Positions 585-21,707 of a stretch of DNA of 21,707 bases are shown here, one piece after another. The notes beneath the pieces are model-generated. The model worked only from the letters and a program-made list of their open reading frames with translations. It searched no databases and was not told where the DNA came from. How positions within the stretch are numbered: position 1 is the stretch's first letter; every line of letters starts with the position of its first letter. Source of the DNA: Prolixibacteraceae bacterium (lineage in GTDB: Bacteria > Bacteroidota > Bacteroidia > Bacteroidales > Prolixibacteraceae); contig JAGODU010000062.1 of assembly GCA_017998095.1 (NCBI GenBank), positions 1 through 21,707 on the forward strand, written 5' to 3'. A program made the translations under genes and the position numbers.

Positions 585-2159
585 ATGGCAATGAAGAAAT
601 ATATCACAATATTATCCTTTTTACTTCTCTTCTCCTGCGAAGACGAATTTTATAAAGATGTAAACAAGTATCTGGCAATTGATACTGAAGAAGAAAAGGT
701 TGAAATGATGAACGGTATTTATTCAAACCTTGTTAAGGTTCATAACTACAACTATTTTAGTTTAACCGGCAGAGCCGATGATTTAAATCAATACATCAGC
801 TATATGTTCTATCTGGAAGATGGTCGTATCAATTGCGGTGCTTCAGCCAGCAATCAAATCGATTATACTGATATCGCCTCTGAAAAATATTCCTTTTTAT
901 ACACTGCTATCATTAATATTAATACCCTCCTTGAAACTTTAAAAGAACCTGAGGATAAGTATCTGCTCGGGGAACTTCATTTCTTAAGGGCTTACTGTTA
1001 TTTAAAACTCGCAAGGCTTTTCGGCACTCCTCCATTGGTAAAGGATACTGATGTAAGTTATACACTTGAAAAACCTACACATCAGGAAATGTTTCAGTTT
1101 ATTGAAGAAGAATTGCTTAATGCAATAGAACTTCTGCCGGAAACTTATACTGAGGCTAGGGTTTCGGGAGAAACCCCCCATAAAGGAACTGCCAAAGCCT
1201 TGCTGGCAGAAGTTTATCTTTCTATGGCCGGATTTCCTTTATATGATACAGGTAAGTATGCAGAAGCAGCCCGATTAGCAGGTGAAGTAATTGAAAGAGC
1301 CGACTACTATAACTTTGCCCTTCTTGATGATTTCGCTTCCCTATGGAAAGAAGATTACAAACACAATAAGGAAAATCTATTCGGACTGTTCTTTAAAGGC
1401 AATGAAGATAATGAAATGAATAATATTGCAAATTATATGTTGAGCTATAACATGGAAGGGGAATGGGCAAGTATGAATTTAGAAAGTAGTTATAATCCCG
1501 AAATCAAATTCTATGTCGACTTTCCGTTAAACTACAGGAAAGAACAAACCTTTGTCATTGGCACATATGGTGCAAAATATTACAATACAATGGATACATC
1601 ATTTTACGTGATGCAATTTTCACCCTTTGACCCGATAAAAGAACCCTGTGAATTTATACGTGGTGCTGTATATAAAAAGTGGATTGATATTACTAATGAA
1701 AAGTACGATCCCGGAAATTTTGCTGAAAAATATTCTGTATATTCTGCCCTTTCAGAAGTAACCCTTTACTTGTTACGCTATGCACATACTCTACTTACCT
1801 ATGCCGAGGCGAAAGCACGCTCCGGCAATCTTGATGCATCTGCTTATGAAATGATCAACAGGATAAGGAGGCGCGCCAATCATCTCGATATTTATTCTCC
1901 TTCAGTATTTGATCTTACACCCGGCCTTTCTGCTGAGCAATTTGCTGATTCAGTTGTAAAGGAACGCTCCTGGGAACTGGCAGGTGAACCCGATGGAAGA
2001 TGGTTTGATATTATCAGATTAAACCTTAAGGATCAACTACCTTCAATGAGTTATAGTTTCGACTTCCCAAATAAGGCAACATCTGCCAGTGTTACTGATG
2101 AATGGTATTTTTACCCTATTCCTGAACAAGATCGCTTTTTAAACCCTAATTTCAAATAG
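585..2159 (+). CDS. SusD/RagB-family outer-membrane nutrient-binding lipoprotein
   Basis: This protein of 524 residues is the usual size for SusD-like proteins. The N-terminus has a lipoprotein signal ending in LLLFSC, followed at once by acidic residues (EDE). In Bacteroidota that arrangement is a surface-export signal, so the protein is probably anchored on the outer face. SusD-family features are the helical TPR-like N-terminal half (FLRAYCYLKLARLFG), the segment YAEAKARSG near residue 405, RSWELAGEPDGRWFDIIRL near residue 465, and the ending YFYPIPEQDRFLNPN. It should act as the lid and ligand-binding partner of the SusC receptor encoded just upstream (4-base gap). Two ATGs are possible, at 585 and 591. 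The second gives a more typical MKKYITIL signal peptide. The ligand is unknown. Confidence 0.93.
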   Translation: MAMKKYITILSFLLLFSCEDEFYKDVNKYLAIDTEEEKVEMMNGIYSNLVKVHNYNYFSLTGRADDLNQYISYMFYLEDGRINCGASASNQIDYTDIASEKYSFLYTAIININTLLETLKEPEDKYLLGELHFLRAYCYLKLARLFGTPPLVKDTDVSYTLEKPTHQEMFQFIEEELLNAIELLPETYTEARVSGETPHKGTAKALLAEVYLSMAGFPLYDTGKYAEAARLAGEVIERADYYNFALLDDFASLWKEDYKHNKENLFGLFFKGNEDNEMNNIANYMLSYNMEGEWASMNLESSYNPEIKFYVDFPLNYRKEQTFVIGTYGAKYYNTMDTSFYVMQFSPFDPIKEPCEFIRGAVYKKWIDITNEKYDPGNFAEKYSVYSALSEVTLYLLRYAHTLLTYAEAKARSGNLDASAYEMINRIRRRANHLDIYSPSVFDLTPGLSAEQFADSVVKERSWELAGEPDGRWFDIIRLNLKDQLPSMSYSFDFPNKATSASVTDEWYFYPIPEQDRFLNPNFK

Positions 2160-2161
2160 TC

Positions 2162-3526
2162 ATGAAAAAATATATACATCACAATATTGTTGTTGCAATT
2201 ATCATGTTAACTGTAATATTTGTCAGGACATCATTTGCACAGGAAAATTTGCAATTAAGTATTGGAGAAGGCATTTCTGCCTCTCTGCCGGAACTTGTCG
2301 ATATCAAGAGCGTAAACACTTCCCTGAAGCTTGATTCGATCTATGAAGATTTGAATATCGGATACAAAACCATTAAAAGAAAATGGCTTTTCAATTATGA
2401 CAATAACAATTTGACTACTAAAGAGCACCTGTACTATTCTGATGATTACAGCAACCCATTAAACCTACGGGAAGAATGGTTCTACAATGAAAGAGGACAA
2501 GTAGTTAAATATCAGGAGAGAGATGTCCTTACGACCTTGTCGGACAGCTTATTTGTTAAAGTTCTCCAGGAAAATACTTATGCAGGCGATAATATCATAC
2601 TAATAAAAAGTAAAACAGTGAGCAGAGCAAGTGCAGGAGGTAATTATGTAAACGGAGAACTTGTATTGCATTATTCAATTGAGTACCATGAAACATTTAT
2701 CAGAAATTTATATAACACAGAGGGTAACTTATATCTGGCTTATAAAGAACCAACTAAAGATTCAATTTTTTACTATTACTATGACGCTGACCATCTAAGG
2801 TTAAGAATTGAAAAGATTAATAGTAATAACCAACTATATGTTGAACAATTTGAATACACAGAATCAAATACGATGAAACATATTTCAAAAAAATATGACC
2901 GTTTCTATAACACAACAGATGTTTCTGATATAGAAAAAAAAGTTTTATCCTCGGAATATGTATATGATTATGAACTTAATGATTATGGGAAACCCAATAA
3001 AATAACAGTAACAGCAAATAACTATGGATTTTCAAACTATGATTCCCAGACTTTCTTTGAATACAATGAAAATGGTCAGCCTGTATTGATTTCTATTTAC
3101 TTCTGGGGCACTCAGAACTCATCGAAAAGTGAATGGTATGAACAGGCCAGACTTGTTTATAAATACAACGATGATGGCAATATCTCCAGCTACCAGATGT
3201 CCATTTATGATGCCCGCCTACATGGATGGGTAATAGGCGAGCAAAAGACATACTTCTACAGTTCTTTGAAAAGTACAACATCTAAGATCGAAACCTCTAA
3301 TGTTGATGTTTGCATATACCCCAACCCCGTAAATGAAACTATTTATCTGTCGGGCACAATATGCAATGACTCGAAATTCATTATTCATGATTACTCTGGA
3401 AAGAGTGTTTCCGAAGGAGAAATGACCGGGAACTCAATTAATGTGAGCAATCTCAGAAAAGGCCTTTACCTGATTAATATTTATAATGACAAAGCCCGAA
3501 CTGTAAAAAGGTTTATAAAGGAATAG
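2162..3526 (+). CDS. T9SS-exported protein with YD/RHS-like repeats
   Basis: The protein has 454 residues. It starts with a Sec signal peptide ending near TSFAQ and finishes with a type A T9SS sorting domain (from about residue 382: YPNPVNETIYLSG, then YSGKSVSEG, LRKGLYLINIY and a basic end), so it should cross the outer membrane and be released or attached at the surface. The middle is tyrosine- and asparagine-rich, with recurring Y-N-x-x-G-like units (YNERGQVVKY, YNTEGNLYLAY, YNENGQPVLI, YNDDGNISSYQ). These resemble the beta-hairpin YD motifs of RHS-type proteins, but no enzymatic core is visible. It begins two bases after the SusD stop and is clearly in the same operon, so it may bind or present the substrate of the SusCD pair. 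That role is inferred from position only. Confidence 0.82.
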   Translation: MKKYIHHNIVVAIIMLTVIFVRTSFAQENLQLSIGEGISASLPELVDIKSVNTSLKLDSIYEDLNIGYKTIKRKWLFNYDNNNLTTKEHLYYSDDYSNPLNLREEWFYNERGQVVKYQERDVLTTLSDSLFVKVLQENTYAGDNIILIKSKTVSRASAGGNYVNGELVLHYSIEYHETFIRNLYNTEGNLYLAYKEPTKDSIFYYYYDADHLRLRIEKINSNNQLYVEQFEYTESNTMKHISKKYDRFYNTTDVSDIEKKVLSSEYVYDYELNDYGKPNKITVTANNYGFSNYDSQTFFEYNENGQPVLISIYFWGTQNSSKSEWYEQARLVYKYNDDGNISSYQMSIYDARLHGWVIGEQKTYFYSSLKSTTSKIETSNVDVCIYPNPVNETIYLSGTICNDSKFIIHDYSGKSVSEGEMTGNSINVSNLRKGLYLINIYNDKARTVKRFIKE

Positions 3527-3591
3527 ATATACTTATATTCCATTTCCCCATTACTCATAAAGAAATCAGGTGATTATTCAATTTATTCTGA

Positions 3592-3631
3592 ATTAATTAA
3601 TAGAATTATACCCTCAATTTTATTAATTAAT
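3592..3631. repeat. 40-nt near-perfect inverted repeat before higBA
   Basis: Arms ATTAATTAATA (3592-3602) and TATTAATTAAT (3621-3631) are exact inverted copies. The stem continues inward by GAATT against AATTT with one G-T pair, leaving an 8-nt loop (3608-3615). The right arm ends two bases before the candidate -33 box of the toxin-antitoxin promoter, so it could be an operator for HigA or the HigBA complex. It could also be a 3'-end hairpin of the SusCD operon, although the stem is nearly all A-T and weak. An outer inverted pair, AATCAGGT (3564-3571) and ACCTGATT (3647-3654), flanks it. Confidence 0.6.
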
Positions 3632-3633
3632 CA

Positions 3634-3665
3634 TTTGGAATTAGTTACCTGATTAGCTAACTTTG
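3634..3665 (+). promoter_or_regulatory. Bacteroidota-type promoter of higBA
   Basis: TTTG at 3634-3637, a 20-base spacer and TAACTTTG at 3658-3665 match the Bacteroidota sigma-factor consensus TTTG-N(19-23)-TAnnTTTG exactly. The -7 box ends only two bases before the ATG of higB (3668), so transcription would begin at or within the start codon. That suggests a leaderless mRNA. Confidence 0.65.
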
Positions 3666-3667
3666 CT

Positions 3668-4024
3668 ATGGAAATAAACAAAATCAGAGAAGTATTTTTT
3701 TATAAAAATTACTTTCTGGACTTCTTCGATACTTTAACCTCAGATGTTAAAACAAAACTAAACTGGACGTTAAGACTAATTGAAACAACAGAAAGAGTAC
3801 CGATAAAATACTTCAAGTATTTGGAAAGTTCAACTGGAATATACGAGATCAGAGTAGAGTTCGGAAGTAATATTTATAGAGTATTTTCTTTTTTTGATGA
3901 AGGGAAACTCATAATTCTGATTAACGGATTTAAGAAGAAATCGAACAAGACTCCCAGGAGTGAAATTGCAATGGCAGAAAAAATAAAAAAAGAATATTTC
4001 AATGAAAAATCAAACAACCAATAA
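3668..4024 (+). CDS. higB: HigB-type toxin, RelE/ParE superfamily (Gp49-like)
   Basis: The protein has 118 residues, a normal length for the phage Gp49-like/HigB toxin family. Family features are the central beta-sheet segment GIYEIRVEFGSNIYRVFSFF (about residues 57-76), then LIILINGFKKKSNKTP (about 80-95), then a C-terminal helix with EIAMAEKIKKEY. Toxins of this family are ribosome-dependent mRNA endonucleases. The conserved basic and aromatic residues (R62, Y71, R72, K89-K91) are compatible with that activity. The antitoxin gene overlaps the toxin's 3' end by 23 bases, and toxin-first order is characteristic of HigBA rather than RelBE. The only good start is the ATG at 3668, since there is no other methionine until residue 101. 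A complete promoter lies directly upstream, so the pair has its own transcription. Confidence 0.88.
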   Translation: MEINKIREVFFYKNYFLDFFDTLTSDVKTKLNWTLRLIETTERVPIKYFKYLESSTGIYEIRVEFGSNIYRVFSFFDEGKLIILINGFKKKSNKTPRSEIAMAEKIKKEYFNEKSNNQ

Positions 4025-4310
4025 CCTCAAATCACTCTCTGACCATCTGGATGAGCAATATGGTAAAAGAGGTACTCCTGAAAGAGAAGAATTTGAAGAA
4101 GGATTTGAATCTTTCAAAATTGGAGTTATGCTTCAGGAACTCCGTAAAGAACATGGTATGACTCAGGAACAGCTTGCCCAGAAATGCGGGACAACAAAAA
4201 CATACATTTCAAGAATTGAAAATGATTCTTCTGATATCAGACTTACTACAATAATGAGAATCATTCGTCAGGGTTTTGGGATGAAACTTAAACTTACAGT
4301 TGAGCCCTGA
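4002..4310 (+). CDS. higA: HigA-type antitoxin, XRE-family helix-turn-helix
   Basis: This 102-residue protein has a C-terminal Cro/C1-type helix-turn-helix at about residues 41-98: IGVMLQELRKEHGMTQEQLAQ, then CGTTKTYISRIEN as the recognition-helix region. The N-terminal 35 residues are charged and rich in acidic residues (EREEFEEGFE). It should neutralise the HigB toxin by direct binding and repress the shared promoter at 3634-3665. The ATG at 4002 lies inside the toxin gene, giving a 23-base overlap that points to translational coupling. The stop is only three bases from the stop of the convergent AlkD-like gene, so there is no space for an intergenic terminator. Confidence 0.9.
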   Translation: MKNQTTNNLKSLSDHLDEQYGKRGTPEREEFEEGFESFKIGVMLQELRKEHGMTQEQLAQKCGTTKTYISRIENDSSDIRLTTIMRIIRQGFGMKLKLTVEP

Positions 4311-5116: not shown

Positions 5117-6520
5117 ATGAAAAATTTTCATACTCTTTCAAATTTAAAAAGAATATCAGTGCTTTTACTAGCTATAAGCATGAATTTCTTTTCATCAATT
5201 GCATTTGCCCAGGAAGAAGAAACAGAAGATAAGACTATTTCTCCATTCTTTTACGTAGAATCTTCAGATTCAACCGTTGATCAGCTACCTCTCAAATCGA
5301 CCAAAGTAAATGTCGATATAAGTGGCGTCATTGCTGATGTTACTATTCTTCAAAGCTATTCTAATGTCGGCTCCAAAACCATTGAAGCTAAATACATTTT
5401 CCCGATGTCGACCAAAGCAGCTGTTTACAAGCTCCGTATGATAATAGGCGACAGGATAATGACTGCTGTGGTAAAAGAAAAAGAGCAGGCACAGGAAGAA
5501 TATGAAGAAGCTATTCAACAAGGACACACTGCCACCCTTCTCGAACAGGAGCGCCCCAATGTTATGCAGATGAAAGTCGGCAATATCCTGCCCGGCGACA
5601 ATATTGACATAGAACTGAGATACACTGAACTTATTACCCCCGTAAATGGTGTTTATGAATTTGTGTATCCAACAGTTGTTGGTCCCCGCTATTTCGGACC
5701 TTCATCCGATCCTTCCGACAGTACCTGGGTTGAAATACCATACACCCACGAGGGAGAACCACCAATGAATACTTTCGATATTAATGTTTCTATAAACGGA
5801 GGCATGCCGGTAAAGGCCGTCAGTTGCCCTTCACATGAACCTGTAGATATAGAGTATCTCAGTGAAACCGCTGTTAAGGTTGGCTTGCGGGAAGGTGATT
5901 CACTTTCGGGAAACAAAGACTTTATCCTTGATTACGTACTCAGCGGCGATAAGAATGAAGCCGGGGTATTGCTTTACGAAGGTGAAGATGAAAACTTCTT
6001 CCTTTCTATGATACAGCCTCCAAAGAATCCTGAGCCAAATGATGTCAACTATCGTGAATATATTTTCATCGTTGATGTTTCAGGCTCAATGTTCGGCTTT
6101 CCTCTTGAAATATCAAAGTCGCTTATAACTAATGTGATAAACAGTTTGAATCCACTTGAAAAGTTCAATATAATTTGTTTTTCCGGAGGGTCTTCATTTC
6201 TGTTTGATGAGTCAAAATATGCAACACCTGAAAATAAAGAATCCGCAAATACATTCCTGACATCATTAAGCGGAGGAGGAGGCACTAACCTTCTGCCGGC
6301 TCTTCAGTCTGCTCTTTCCTATCCCACTGATGATGAATTTTCAAGAATATTTGTAATTGCTACCGACGGATACGTAACAGTTGAAAAGGACGCTTTCGAC
6401 CTTATTCGTAACAATCTCAATAAGGCAAACTTCTTTGCATTCGGGATAGGCACTGCAGTCAACCGCTTTATAATTGAAGGAATGGCCCATGCAGGTATGG
6501 GTGAAGCCTTTGTAGTTTAA
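5117..6520 (+). CDS. VIT and von Willebrand A domain protein, N-terminal part, ended by a premature TAA
   Basis: The 467-residue product has a signal peptide ending at SIAFAQ (about residue 32), an inter-alpha-trypsin-inhibitor-type VIT domain (about 42-170, with KYIFPMS, KEKEQAQEEYEEA and LPGDNIDIELRY), and a von Willebrand A domain from about residue 314. The metal-ion adhesion site is intact: D320-x-S322-x-S324 in VDVSGSM, T390 in GGGGTN, and D417 in ATDG. Such proteins are exported and bind partners through the A domain. The frame stops at TAA 6518-6520 just as the A domain finishes (EAFVV), but the same frame stays open to 7388 and encodes the missing part of the family. This is therefore the front of an interrupted gene, not a naturally short protein. 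If made alone it would lack the T9SS sorting domain and would not be expected to leave the periplasm. Confidence 0.85.
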   Translation: MKNFHTLSNLKRISVLLLAISMNFFSSIAFAQEEETEDKTISPFFYVESSDSTVDQLPLKSTKVNVDISGVIADVTILQSYSNVGSKTIEAKYIFPMSTKAAVYKLRMIIGDRIMTAVVKEKEQAQEEYEEAIQQGHTATLLEQERPNVMQMKVGNILPGDNIDIELRYTELITPVNGVYEFVYPTVVGPRYFGPSSDPSDSTWVEIPYTHEGEPPMNTFDINVSINGGMPVKAVSCPSHEPVDIEYLSETAVKVGLREGDSLSGNKDFILDYVLSGDKNEAGVLLYEGEDENFFLSMIQPPKNPEPNDVNYREYIFIVDVSGSMFGFPLEISKSLITNVINSLNPLEKFNIICFSGGSSFLFDESKYATPENKESANTFLTSLSGGGGTNLLPALQSALSYPTDDEFSRIFVIATDGYVTVEKDAFDLIRNNLNKANFFAFGIGTAVNRFIIEGMAHAGMGEAFVV

Positions 6521-7390
6521 AAACAAGCAGAAGCAGCTGCCGATGCCGAACTCTTCAGAAACTATATTGAAAACCCTGTGCTTACCGGAATCAAAGCTTC
6601 ATTTAACAACTTCGATGTATATGACGTTGAACCGGTTGCAATCCCCGATGTCTTTGCAGAAAGACCAATAATTATTTATGGAAAATGGAAGTCCCCATTG
6701 CAGGGATCAATCAAACTGGACGGTATTTCAGGGAAGAATATACCTTACAGCAAAACTCTGAATATGAATGACTATACCCCATCTGATGAAAATAAAGCTT
6801 TAAGGTATTTATGGGCAAGATACAGACTCCGGATGCTCAGCGATTATAATAACTCCACTTTCTATTCAGATAAGGAACAATTAAAAACTGAAATCACTGA
6901 CTTAGGATTGAAATATAATCTTCTCACAGAATATACCTCTTTCATTGCTATCGACTCTTTAATCAGGAATGTTGACGGGCAGCTCACAACAGTGGTAGTA
7001 CCAAATCCAATGCCTGAAGGAGTTTCAGACCTTGCTGTAGGTGATTATACAGGTAATAAGATTGCTACTGCAAATTACTCACTGGAATTGTTAAACAATA
7101 CCGGAACAAACAGCTTAACTAAAATAGTTAAAGCATATCCCAATCCTTTCATTTCAAACTTGTCATTCATAATTCAAATTGCAGGTGAAGATTGTTATAA
7201 AACAAAAGAAGTTGAGATTTATAACAGCATCGGACAACTTGTCAACAAGATTGATGTCACCTCACTTTCTTCTTCAGTCAATTATCTGACTATACCTGAA
7301 AGTGAATTTAAAGGACAAAAAGGAATTTTCTGTTTAGTATTTAAAATTGACAGCAAAGAATACGGAAGTATTAAAGTCAACAGGAAATAA
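6521..7390 (+). pseudogene. Separated C-terminal part of the VIT/vWA protein with T9SS sorting domain
   Basis: This 289-codon stretch is in exactly the same frame as the preceding gene, directly after its TAA. It continues with KQAEAAADAELF, then the family's post-A-domain region (YLWARYRLRMLSDY and LGLKYNLLTEYTSFIAID, typical of VIT/vWA proteins), and ends with a type A T9SS sorting domain from about 7127 (KAYPNPFISNLSF, YNSIGQLVNKID, GIFCLVFK). The only start-like codon near the front is the GTG at 6578, which falls in the middle of a conserved stretch and has no signal peptide after it, so independent translation would give a cytoplasmic fragment. No further stops or frameshifts have accumulated, which suggests a recent nonsense mutation or a sequence error. 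Full length without the stop would be 757 codons. Confidence 0.75.
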
Positions 7391-7427
7391 AGCCGTATTA
7401 ACACTATTCAAATTATAGTTTGAACCA

Positions 7428-7460
7428 TACCAAATTCGTACCAGATTCGTACCAAATACC
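7428..7460 (+). repeat. Tandem 11-nt repeats
   Basis: TACCAAATTCG (7428-7438), TACCAGATTCG (7439-7449) and the partial copy TACCAAATACC (7450-7460) lie head to tail. The third copy forms the left arm of the adjoining hairpin. There are too few copies, without spacers, for a CRISPR array. Confidence 0.7.
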
Positions 7461-7495
7461 ATAAGAGGGGTTGCCTTATGGTATTTGGGTCGAAT
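7445..7495. repeat. Intergenic stem-loop between the VIT/vWA gene and tdh
   Basis: The arms CCAAATACCATAAG (7452-7465) and CTTATGGTATTTGG (7475-7488) form a perfect 14-bp stem with a 9-nt loop. After a short mismatch the stem resumes with ATTCG (7445-7449) against CGAAT (7491-7495). It lies 54 bases past the last stop codon and is not followed by a T-run, so it is not a standard intrinsic terminator. It could be a palindromic repeat element, an mRNA-stabilising 3' hairpin or an operator for tdh. Confidence 0.7.
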
Positions 7496-7594
7496 GAGTT
7501 ACTTATCTAGTACGGTTAAGGAGTATATGGTATAATCTCATTTGTTTTAATCTTTTTTATCATGAAATTGCATAAATAAATACTGATCTGTATT

Positions 7595-8623
7595 ATGAAA
7601 GCAATTGTTAAAGTTAAGCCTGAAAGAGGCATTTGGATGGAAGAAGTTCCTGTTCCAAAACCGGGAGTAAATGAAGTTCTTTTAAAAATAAGGAAGTCGG
7701 CTATATGTGGTACCGACCTTCACATATTCAAATGGGATGAGTGGGCACGTCAGACTATCAATACCCCATTGATTATAGGACATGAGTATGTAGGTGAAAT
7801 AGTGGAACTTGGCTCTGAAGTTACCCAGTATAATATAGGCGACCGTGTAACTGCTGAAGGTCATATTGCATGCGGGCATTGCAGAAACTGCAGAAGAGGC
7901 CGCCAGCATATCTGCGATCACACAGTGGGAATTGGTGTTAATCGTGATGGAGGATTTGCTGAATTTGTTGCTGTTCCCGTTAGCAACGTTCTTAAAATAG
8001 ACAGCCGCATTCCGGATGAAATAGTTTCTATAATGGACCCTCTGGGTAATGCCTGCCACACAGCTCTTTCATTTCCTCTTATTGGTGAGGATGTTATGAT
8101 TACAGGAATCGGAGGGCCTATTGGAGCAATGGCAACAGCTATCTGTAAATTTGTTGGTGCACGAAATGTTATGGGCACTGACTTAAGTCCCTACAGGCGT
8201 GAACTGGCAAGGAAGATGGGAGCCGATGAAGTAATTGATCCTCTTACCGATTCTATTGATGAAGCAATAAAGAGGATGGGCATGGTTTCAGGCTTTGATA
8301 TAGGTCTCGAATGCTCAGGCTCTCCTGTTGCTTTCAACGATATGGTAAATCACATGTACAATGGCGGGAAAATTTCTCTTTTGGGCATCCTCCCATCAAA
8401 TACTACAATCAACTGGAATAAAGTTATTTTCAAAGGACTCACTTTAAAAGGTATATATGGTCGTGAAATGTTTGAAACATGGTATCACATGGAGATGATG
8501 CTGACACGTGGTCTAAACATTACACCTGTTATTACTCACCGCCTTAAGGCCGATGATTTTGAAGAAGGATTCCGAATAATGGAAGAGGGCAATTGCGGAA
8601 AGGTAATACTCGATTGGGAGTAG
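7595..8623 (+). CDS. tdh: L-threonine 3-dehydrogenase
   Basis: This zinc-dependent medium-chain dehydrogenase oxidises L-threonine with NAD+ to 2-amino-3-ketobutyrate in threonine catabolism. At 342 residues it follows the Escherichia coli enzyme along its whole length. Diagnostic segments are AICGTDLHIFKWDEW (C38, T40, H43), GHEYVGE (H63, E64 of the catalytic zinc site), the structural zinc cysteines C93, C96, C99 and C107 in CGHCRNCRRGRQHIC, GIYGREMFETWY, and the end GKVILDWE. The nucleotide-binding loop reads TGIGGPIG, one glycine longer than the GAGPIG of the E. coli enzyme. The usual partner, 2-amino-3-ketobutyrate CoA ligase (kbl), is not in the window, so the enzyme is not in the classical kbl-tdh operon here. 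The ATG at 7595 gives the standard N-terminus MKAIVKVKPERGIW. Confidence 0.95.
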   Translation: MKAIVKVKPERGIWMEEVPVPKPGVNEVLLKIRKSAICGTDLHIFKWDEWARQTINTPLIIGHEYVGEIVELGSEVTQYNIGDRVTAEGHIACGHCRNCRRGRQHICDHTVGIGVNRDGGFAEFVAVPVSNVLKIDSRIPDEIVSIMDPLGNACHTALSFPLIGEDVMITGIGGPIGAMATAICKFVGARNVMGTDLSPYRRELARKMGADEVIDPLTDSIDEAIKRMGMVSGFDIGLECSGSPVAFNDMVNHMYNGGKISLLGILPSNTTINWNKVIFKGLTLKGIYGREMFETWYHMEMMLTRGLNITPVITHRLKADDFEEGFRIMEEGNCGKVILDWE

Positions 8624-8658
8624 TAATAAAAAAATATAATTCTTTTTAATCGAAAAAT

Positions 8659-8673
8659 TGAGCACAGTGCTCA
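8659..8673. promoter_or_regulatory. 15-bp palindrome, candidate operator before the antiporter gene
   Basis: TGAGCACAGTGCTCA is a perfect inverted repeat of 7-bp arms about a central A. It ends 18 bases before the -7 box at 8692, so it covers the place where the -33 element should be and could block or position RNA polymerase. No T-run follows, so a terminator for tdh is less likely. Confidence 0.5.
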
Positions 8674-8691
8674 GAATTAATTATAATAATT

Positions 8692-8699
8692 TAATTTTG
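8692..8699 (+). promoter_or_regulatory. Candidate -7 box for the antiporter gene
   Basis: TAATTTTG matches TAnnTTTG and lies 19 bases before the ATG at 8719, giving a short leader. A clear TTTG at the -33 spacing is absent. That interval is occupied by a palindrome, which may indicate activator- or repressor-dependent use. Confidence 0.5.
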
Positions 8700-8718
8700 A
8701 AGCACTCATTTATCAATT

Positions 8719-20956: not shown

Positions 20957-20993
20957 TAAAAAGAGCTGCAATTTCATTTTGCAGCTCTTTTTA
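20957..20993 (+). terminator. Intrinsic terminator after the FKBP gene
   Basis: Arms AAAAAGAGCTGCAA (20958-20971) and TTGCAGCTCTTTTT (20979-20992) form a perfect 14-bp stem, 15 with the flanking T-A pair, and a 7-nt loop. The core is GAGCTGC and the stem ends in a T-run, with an A-run on the 5' side, so it could work in both directions. Confidence 0.88.
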
Positions 20994-21079: not shown

Positions 21080-21707
21080 ATGAAAAACTACAGGATTTTA
21101 TTCGCTTTTATTTTTCTGTTTTTCTGTTTTTTAAAAACAGGAATATCCTCAGATGCTGTAAATAAAGAATCAAAAGTTACTGTTGCAAACTGGGGTAACG
21201 GAAAAGCTTATTTTTTCAAGGGAAATGAATATATACGCTTTGATATAAGTGCTGACAAGGCTGATCCCGGTTATCCGAAGAATATTGATTCAAAATCATG
21301 GAATGGATTACCATGGACTAACGGTGTTGATGCTGTAGTTAATTGGGGTAACGGAAAAGCATACTTCTTTAAGGGTAATGAATATCTACGCTGGGATATA
21401 ACTACAGATAAAGCTGATCCCGGATATCCTAAGCATATTGATTCAAAATCATGGAATGGATTACCATGGACTGACGGTGTTGATGCTGTCGTTAATTGGG
21501 GTAACGGTAAAGCTTATTTCTTTAAAGGAAATGAATATGTACGCTGGGATATTAAGACCGACAAAGCTGATCCCGGATATCCAAAGCCTATTGATTCAAA
21601 ATCATGGAATGGGTTACCCTGGACTAACGGTGTTGATGCTGTCGTTAATTGGGGAAACGGAAAAGCATACTTCTTTAAAGGTAATGAATATGTACGCTGG
21701 GATATAA
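21080..21707 (+). CDS. Secreted hemopexin-like repeat protein (partial, runs off the window)
   Basis: Reading from the ATG at 21080 the frame is open to the last base (209 codons, no stop). A signal peptide (MKNYRILFAFIFLFFCFLKTG) is followed by a short linker and then 51-residue repeats starting at residues 37, 88, 139 and 190, the fourth cut by the window end. Each has the pattern NWGNGKAYFFKGNEY, then R-W-D-I, DKADPGYP, IDSKSWNGLPW and GVDAVV. The K-A-Y-F-F-K-G-x-x-Y-x-R-x-D core and the following G-L-P/D-A pair are those of hemopexin blades, four of which usually close one beta-propeller. Known relatives include vertebrate hemopexin and matrix metalloproteinase domains, plant PA2-type albumins and Photorhabdus photopexins. 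They bind haem, ions, polyamines or proteins. The ligand here is unknown. A parallel open frame from 21438 is an artefact of the repeat. Confidence 0.88.
   Translation, partial: MKNYRILFAFIFLFFCFLKTGISSDAVNKESKVTVANWGNGKAYFFKGNEYIRFDISADKADPGYPKNIDSKSWNGLPWTNGVDAVVNWGNGKAYFFKGNEYLRWDITTDKADPGYPKHIDSKSWNGLPWTDGVDAVVNWGNGKAYFFKGNEYVRWDIKTDKADPGYPKPIDSKSWNGLPWTNGVDAVVNWGNGKAYFFKGNEYVRWDI
21188..21707 (+). repeat. Tandem 153-bp coding repeats
   Basis: Units begin at 21188, 21341, 21494 and 21647, spaced exactly 153 bases. Units 2 and 3 differ at 16 of 153 positions. Of 15 changed codons 11 are synonymous, and the proteins match at 47 of 51 residues. The array continues beyond the window. Confidence 0.95.

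Follow-up and report, generated by a model that had tools for sequence, protein, structure and literature searches.

The window analysed here, a stretch of 21,707 nucleotides of contig JAGODU010000062.1 from a Prolixibacteraceae bacterium (assembly GCA_017998095.1), ends within a gene for a protein of repeated hemopexin units, whose place in the hemopexin family and fold is very likely. We favour, with a probability of roughly 0.6, the reading that this protein is an exported multivalent binding module of the hemopexin fold and a putative ligand binder. The gene end is real and intact-looking, and is not decayed as far as it is visible.

A truncated gene of hemopexin repeats

The open reading frame lies at 21080..21706 on the + strand, has 209 codons and is still open where the window ends; its description as a truncated hemopexin-repeat gene rests on the open frame, matches to the Pfam profile PF00045 and an AlphaFold model. 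The N-terminus is signal-peptide-like over approximately residues 1-24 (21080..21151, +) and strongly hydrophobic, with a best 12-residue Kyte-Doolittle mean of 3.1, and it is modelled as a low-confidence helix outside the propeller; the signal peptide proposed in the original prediction is borne out by composition. There follow units of 51 residues, all on the + strand and defined by their spacing and by blade profile matches: blade 1 (residues 33-83, 21176..21328; profile match at residues 35-83), blade 2 (residues 84-134, 21329..21481), which carries the only histidine of the mature part (residue 119), blade 3 (residues 135-185, 21482..21634), and the first 24 residues of blade 4 (186-209, 21635..21706), which is cut by the window end. 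The motif WGNGKAYFF starts at residues 38, 89, 140 and 191, a spacing of exactly 51, and Tandem Repeats Finder reports an array at 21191-21707 with a period of 153, 3.4 copies, 89% matches, 0% indels and a score of 796, so that the exact 153-bp spacing first noted holds throughout. All 24 visible residues of blade 4 agree with the corresponding ones of blade 3, as do 66 of the 72 nucleotides that encode them.

The earlier proposal of hemopexin blades arranged in a propeller is upheld by both profile and predicted structure. PF00045 matches the protein in four stretches with an E value of 2.6e-43 (146.2 bits against a cut-off of 21.3), and the AlphaFold model, which covers three blades and half of the fourth, has a mean predicted local distance difference test score (pLDDT) of 91.1 and a predicted template modelling score (pTM) of 0.84. 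All 30 of the best Foldseek matches in the PDB are hemopexin domains. A four-bladed beta-propeller is predicted, as a partial ring for the window protein and as a whole ring for a near-identical protein, P0001, with agreement between Foldseek and the VIA table, which speaks only to the families that it lists. NCBIfam gives the window protein only a match below cut-off, and a match to PF19362 (DUF5938; 28.4 bits, cut-off 27) that overlaps one blade was set aside as a side match. The hemopexin domains of MMP-2, MMP-14 and vitronectin share the fold and the blade motif, but their blades are diverged and joined to other domains, and they are only 28-35% identical to the window protein. No catalytic metalloprotease domain was found before the ring, there being fewer than 10 residues between the signal-like start and blade 1 and no such Pfam match.

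The full protein and its putative role

P0001 has 281 residues and 9 member sequences, and is encoded on a separate contig of 5538 bases. It begins without a methionine at its own edge, and its first 37 residues are the last 37 of the window protein; there follow the remainder of the shared blade, a low-confidence linker of ~18 residues, and four further blades that are modelled with confidence as a ring. Given the exact 37-residue overlap and the P0001 edge without a start, we infer that a single gene has been divided where the assembly broke within the repeat. Simple arithmetic on the window protein and P0001 then gives a full protein of ~453 residues, which is probably made of two four-bladed propellers joined by a linker, an arrangement seen in part in P0001 (the last blade of one ring, the linker and the whole second ring) and not in the window DNA itself. 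Blades of the two rings match in register, at 92% for 1/1', 96% for 2/2' and 96% for 3/3', with 3/2' also at 96%. No type IX secretion system (T9SS) sorting domain or toxin domain is seen in the visible part of the window protein, whose C-terminus lies beyond the window, and P0001, which stops immediately behind its final blade, has neither, its precomputed Pfam matches being PF19362 and PF00045 only.

A protein of this kind would be exported via Sec. Its first ring would have arisen by lineage-specific amplification of one blade, and the whole ring would then have been duplicated and held by purifying selection. Nearly equal blades would offer the same surface around each ring of a non-enzymatic module, and because this surface is repeated we propose that its ligand, outside the cytoplasm, is likewise repeated or multivalent, perhaps a polymer of the cell surface or matrix, or another protein. 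The most complete form of this proposal, a single secreted polypeptide with two near four-fold-symmetric hemopexin rings, built by expansion from one blade to four and then by copying of the ring as a whole, and presenting an eight-fold repeated binding surface, is offered only tentatively.

Several observations weigh against the preferred reading. P0001 lies on another contig and could be a paralogue or come from another strain, and its exact overlap could also follow from the likeness of the blades. P0121 and other listed eight-blade proteins are without an obvious signal sequence and may therefore serve another purpose. Nor does any conserved neighbour back a pathway among the four loci listed (L001, L002, L055 and L056), of which L001 and L002 are the only similar pair; in these two (2032-4031 and 6772-8717 respectively) the hemopexin gene overlaps the end of an ODP-lactamase/flavodoxin gene by 4 bases, a context absent from the window. 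The overlapped gene is flavodiiron-like and is preceded by a transglycosylase gene (Pfam was run on three of these genes).

The relatives bear on the number of rings. With an E value limit of 1e-3, homologues number 784 for the window part and at least 2041 for P0001, and the 120 listed for each were combined into a set of 165 proteins, in which relatives of the window protein are over-represented. The blade profile finds four blades in 138 of these, eight in 9 and other numbers in 18, several of them fragments, although limits of search length distort these counts; at the level of the group, the multiple of four that had been anticipated is thus found in 147 of 165. A hydrophobic N-terminus is present in 58 of the 69 listed four-blade proteins of 200-260 residues. 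It would accord with these numbers if the gene encoded one ring of only four blades, some 230-245 residues in length like most relatives, with P0001 coming from a different gene, and the separate contig of P0001 fits this; the search length limits favour short proteins, however, and an exact overlap at the window edge with a partner lacking a start is the pattern of a repeat-split gene. We regard a single ring as rather unlikely.

Candidate ligands

In open-access literature, surveyed mostly at the level of listings, no tested function was found for a stand-alone bacterial hemopexin protein. For plant proteins of the hemopexin fold, PMC6934871 describes binding to ions, to spermine or to a porphyrin analogue, and the window protein might likewise bind a small molecule or ion (spermine, a porphyrin analogue, Ca, Na or Cl ions) via its central channel, as do the plant seed albumins. 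We think this unlikely, given that the fold is uninformative on the ligand and that the albumins LS24, CP4 and DC25 have diverged blades and only ~25% identity to the window protein.

In serum hemopexin two histidine ligands hold haem. The visible mature part of the window protein has one histidine, no cysteine, no methionine and 11 tyrosines, and P0001 has no histidine, cysteine or methionine; haem binding of the serum type, with two histidines, therefore looks unlikely from composition, an argument that does not extend to every form of haem binding. A role in scavenging haem or another iron compound, with haem held between two propellers as in serum hemopexin or in a photopexin-like manner, would draw on the hemopexin fold, the probable two-ring layout and the abundant tyrosines, which could in principle bind haem, and photopexins are proposed as iron-compound scavengers in PMC2266911. 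Set against this are the scarcity of histidine, cysteine and methionine just described, the lack of any histidine after residue 30 in 37 of the 69 four-blade relatives of 200-260 residues, and the absence of a haem transport gene from the window among the Pfam-scanned genes (16 proteins, 3 of them from other loci). Such a scavenger appears improbable, and a multivalent binding module remains our preferred reading.

Blade evolution, relatives and genomic context

Blades 1-3 have pairwise identities of 82, 84 and 92% in protein and 85, 84 and 89% in DNA. Near-invariance in protein, as originally described, is a little strong for blade 1 (82-84%); the many third-position differences also described are evident, since the three pairs together show 65 nucleotide differences, 43 of which fall at third codon positions. 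Comparison of synonymous and nonsynonymous changes gives proportions of pS 0.42 and pN 0.07 for the pooled blades (Fisher p 6e-15, the pairs not being independent), and the silent excess is significant for the single pair of blades 2 and 3 (p 2e-6). Nei-Gojobori estimates between whole units are dS 0.57-0.68 and dN/dS 0.07-0.15, rough values that depend on ~31 synonymous sites per unit pair. The units are kept by purifying selection and are not freshly copied, as the original prediction had held. That the array is the only long one in the window could be taken as a sign of gene decay or of a recent DNA repeat expansion devoid of function. Within the visible part this is contradicted by the predominance of silent differences, by 209 codons with no stop, and by near-identical P0001 and the 784 homologues, and it is highly improbable.

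Pereira & Lupas (2022; PMC9218822) describe more than 10,000 highly repetitive propeller domains, in which blades are >60% identical through amplification of one blade, and hemopexin PF00045 is among the families. The supposition that such high blade identity is unusual is not supported: with the 60% cut-off taken from that paper, the median blade identity exceeds it in 117 of the 164 listed proteins with three or more blades, the overall median being 66%. The window protein, at a median of 88% over three whole blades, ranks 5th of 164. It resembles the propellers of that source in family and in blade likeness, and differs in that duplication of the ring after blade amplification is also suggested here. 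The group as a whole does not appear to evolve in concert, since a strict homogenisation test (median blade identity within a protein above its best identity to any other listed protein) was passed by only 5 of 164 proteins, and the nearest blade lies in the same protein for only 199 of 683. The window protein fails this test on account of P0001 and passes it if P0001 is set aside. Among the blades of the window protein and P0001 together identity is 82-96%, and blades from outside reach 80% at most; amplification or levelling therefore postdates the split from the sampled relatives.

The protein belongs to a widespread and already known group of bacterial hemopexin proteins with a documented mode of evolution. 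Among those annotated as hemopexin repeat-containing proteins, P0002, P0004 and P0021, all from Syntrophus sp. SKADARSKE-3, and P0049 from Maridesulfovibrio share with the window protein, at 58-62% identity to it, a signal-like N-terminus and four blades built on the same motif, which are often closely similar to one another; they differ in having mostly one ring, at 220-250 residues, and in a blade consensus with YxRYDI and TWPG where the window protein has YVRWDI and SWNG. In the listed relatives blades also stand beside peptidase, lysozyme-like and other domains, much as hemopexin rings adjoin other domains in MMPs. Relatives occur at no fewer than 12 genome loci, which belong to Bacteroidota, to Syntrophus and to other Proteobacteria sensu lato. 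The rarity first suggested is apparent in Bacteroidota, where PF00045 matches 6 of 395 genomes sampled around G005, a count that includes G005 itself (chosen as centre for its match) and one weak match, to a frame of 65 residues that contains stops; none of 14 control genomes matches. Very long hemopexin-repeat frames occur in G009 (contig C72, ~37952-42883) and G005 (contig C550), of 4545 and 1121 codons respectively, and much longer hemopexin proteins therefore exist in Bacteroidota. A mobile origin was considered and rejected: no relative was found in 50,697 phage records, an exact-word scan of viral contigs gave 153 stretches that fit a pattern, none encoding a relative, and only 11 of 72,556 plasmid records match, the best at 66.5% in Nostoc.

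The propeller gene starts 160 bases beyond a gene for an FKBP protein, for which the best match among 393 genomes sampled from a single order has only 55% identity, so that no close relative of the host appears among them. Between them is a terminator-like hairpin with a 15-pair stem (20957..20993), the single one in a scan where shuffled sequence gave 0.1 on average; it is listed on the - strand with none listed on the +, and the stem is palindromic. Its position separating the two genes suggests that the propeller gene is its own transcription unit. The window also carries SusD and Por_Secre_tail genes, which point to Bacteroidota as the host phylum. Farther upstream, a VIT/VWA-domain gene (5117-6520, +) has an in-frame TAA at 6518-6520 in the middle of the VWA domain region, and the frame is open again at 6578-7390 (+), with a weak, below-cut-off match to a C-terminal sorting domain; the TAA reflects a nonsense mutation or else a mistake in the sequence. 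At 3668-4310 (+) a Gp49/HigB-like gene (PF05973) overlaps a helix-turn-helix gene (PF01381) in a toxin-antitoxin-like arrangement.

Sequence databases contain many bacterial hemopexin proteins, and the window protein, being small and cysteine-free, would be easy to purify and probe for ligands. Its near-identical blades with many silent differences point to a propeller built from one blade and kept uniform by selection. If the two-ring arrangement is true, it would be a naturally occurring double propeller, close to symmetric, that preserves a record of both blade amplification and ring duplication.
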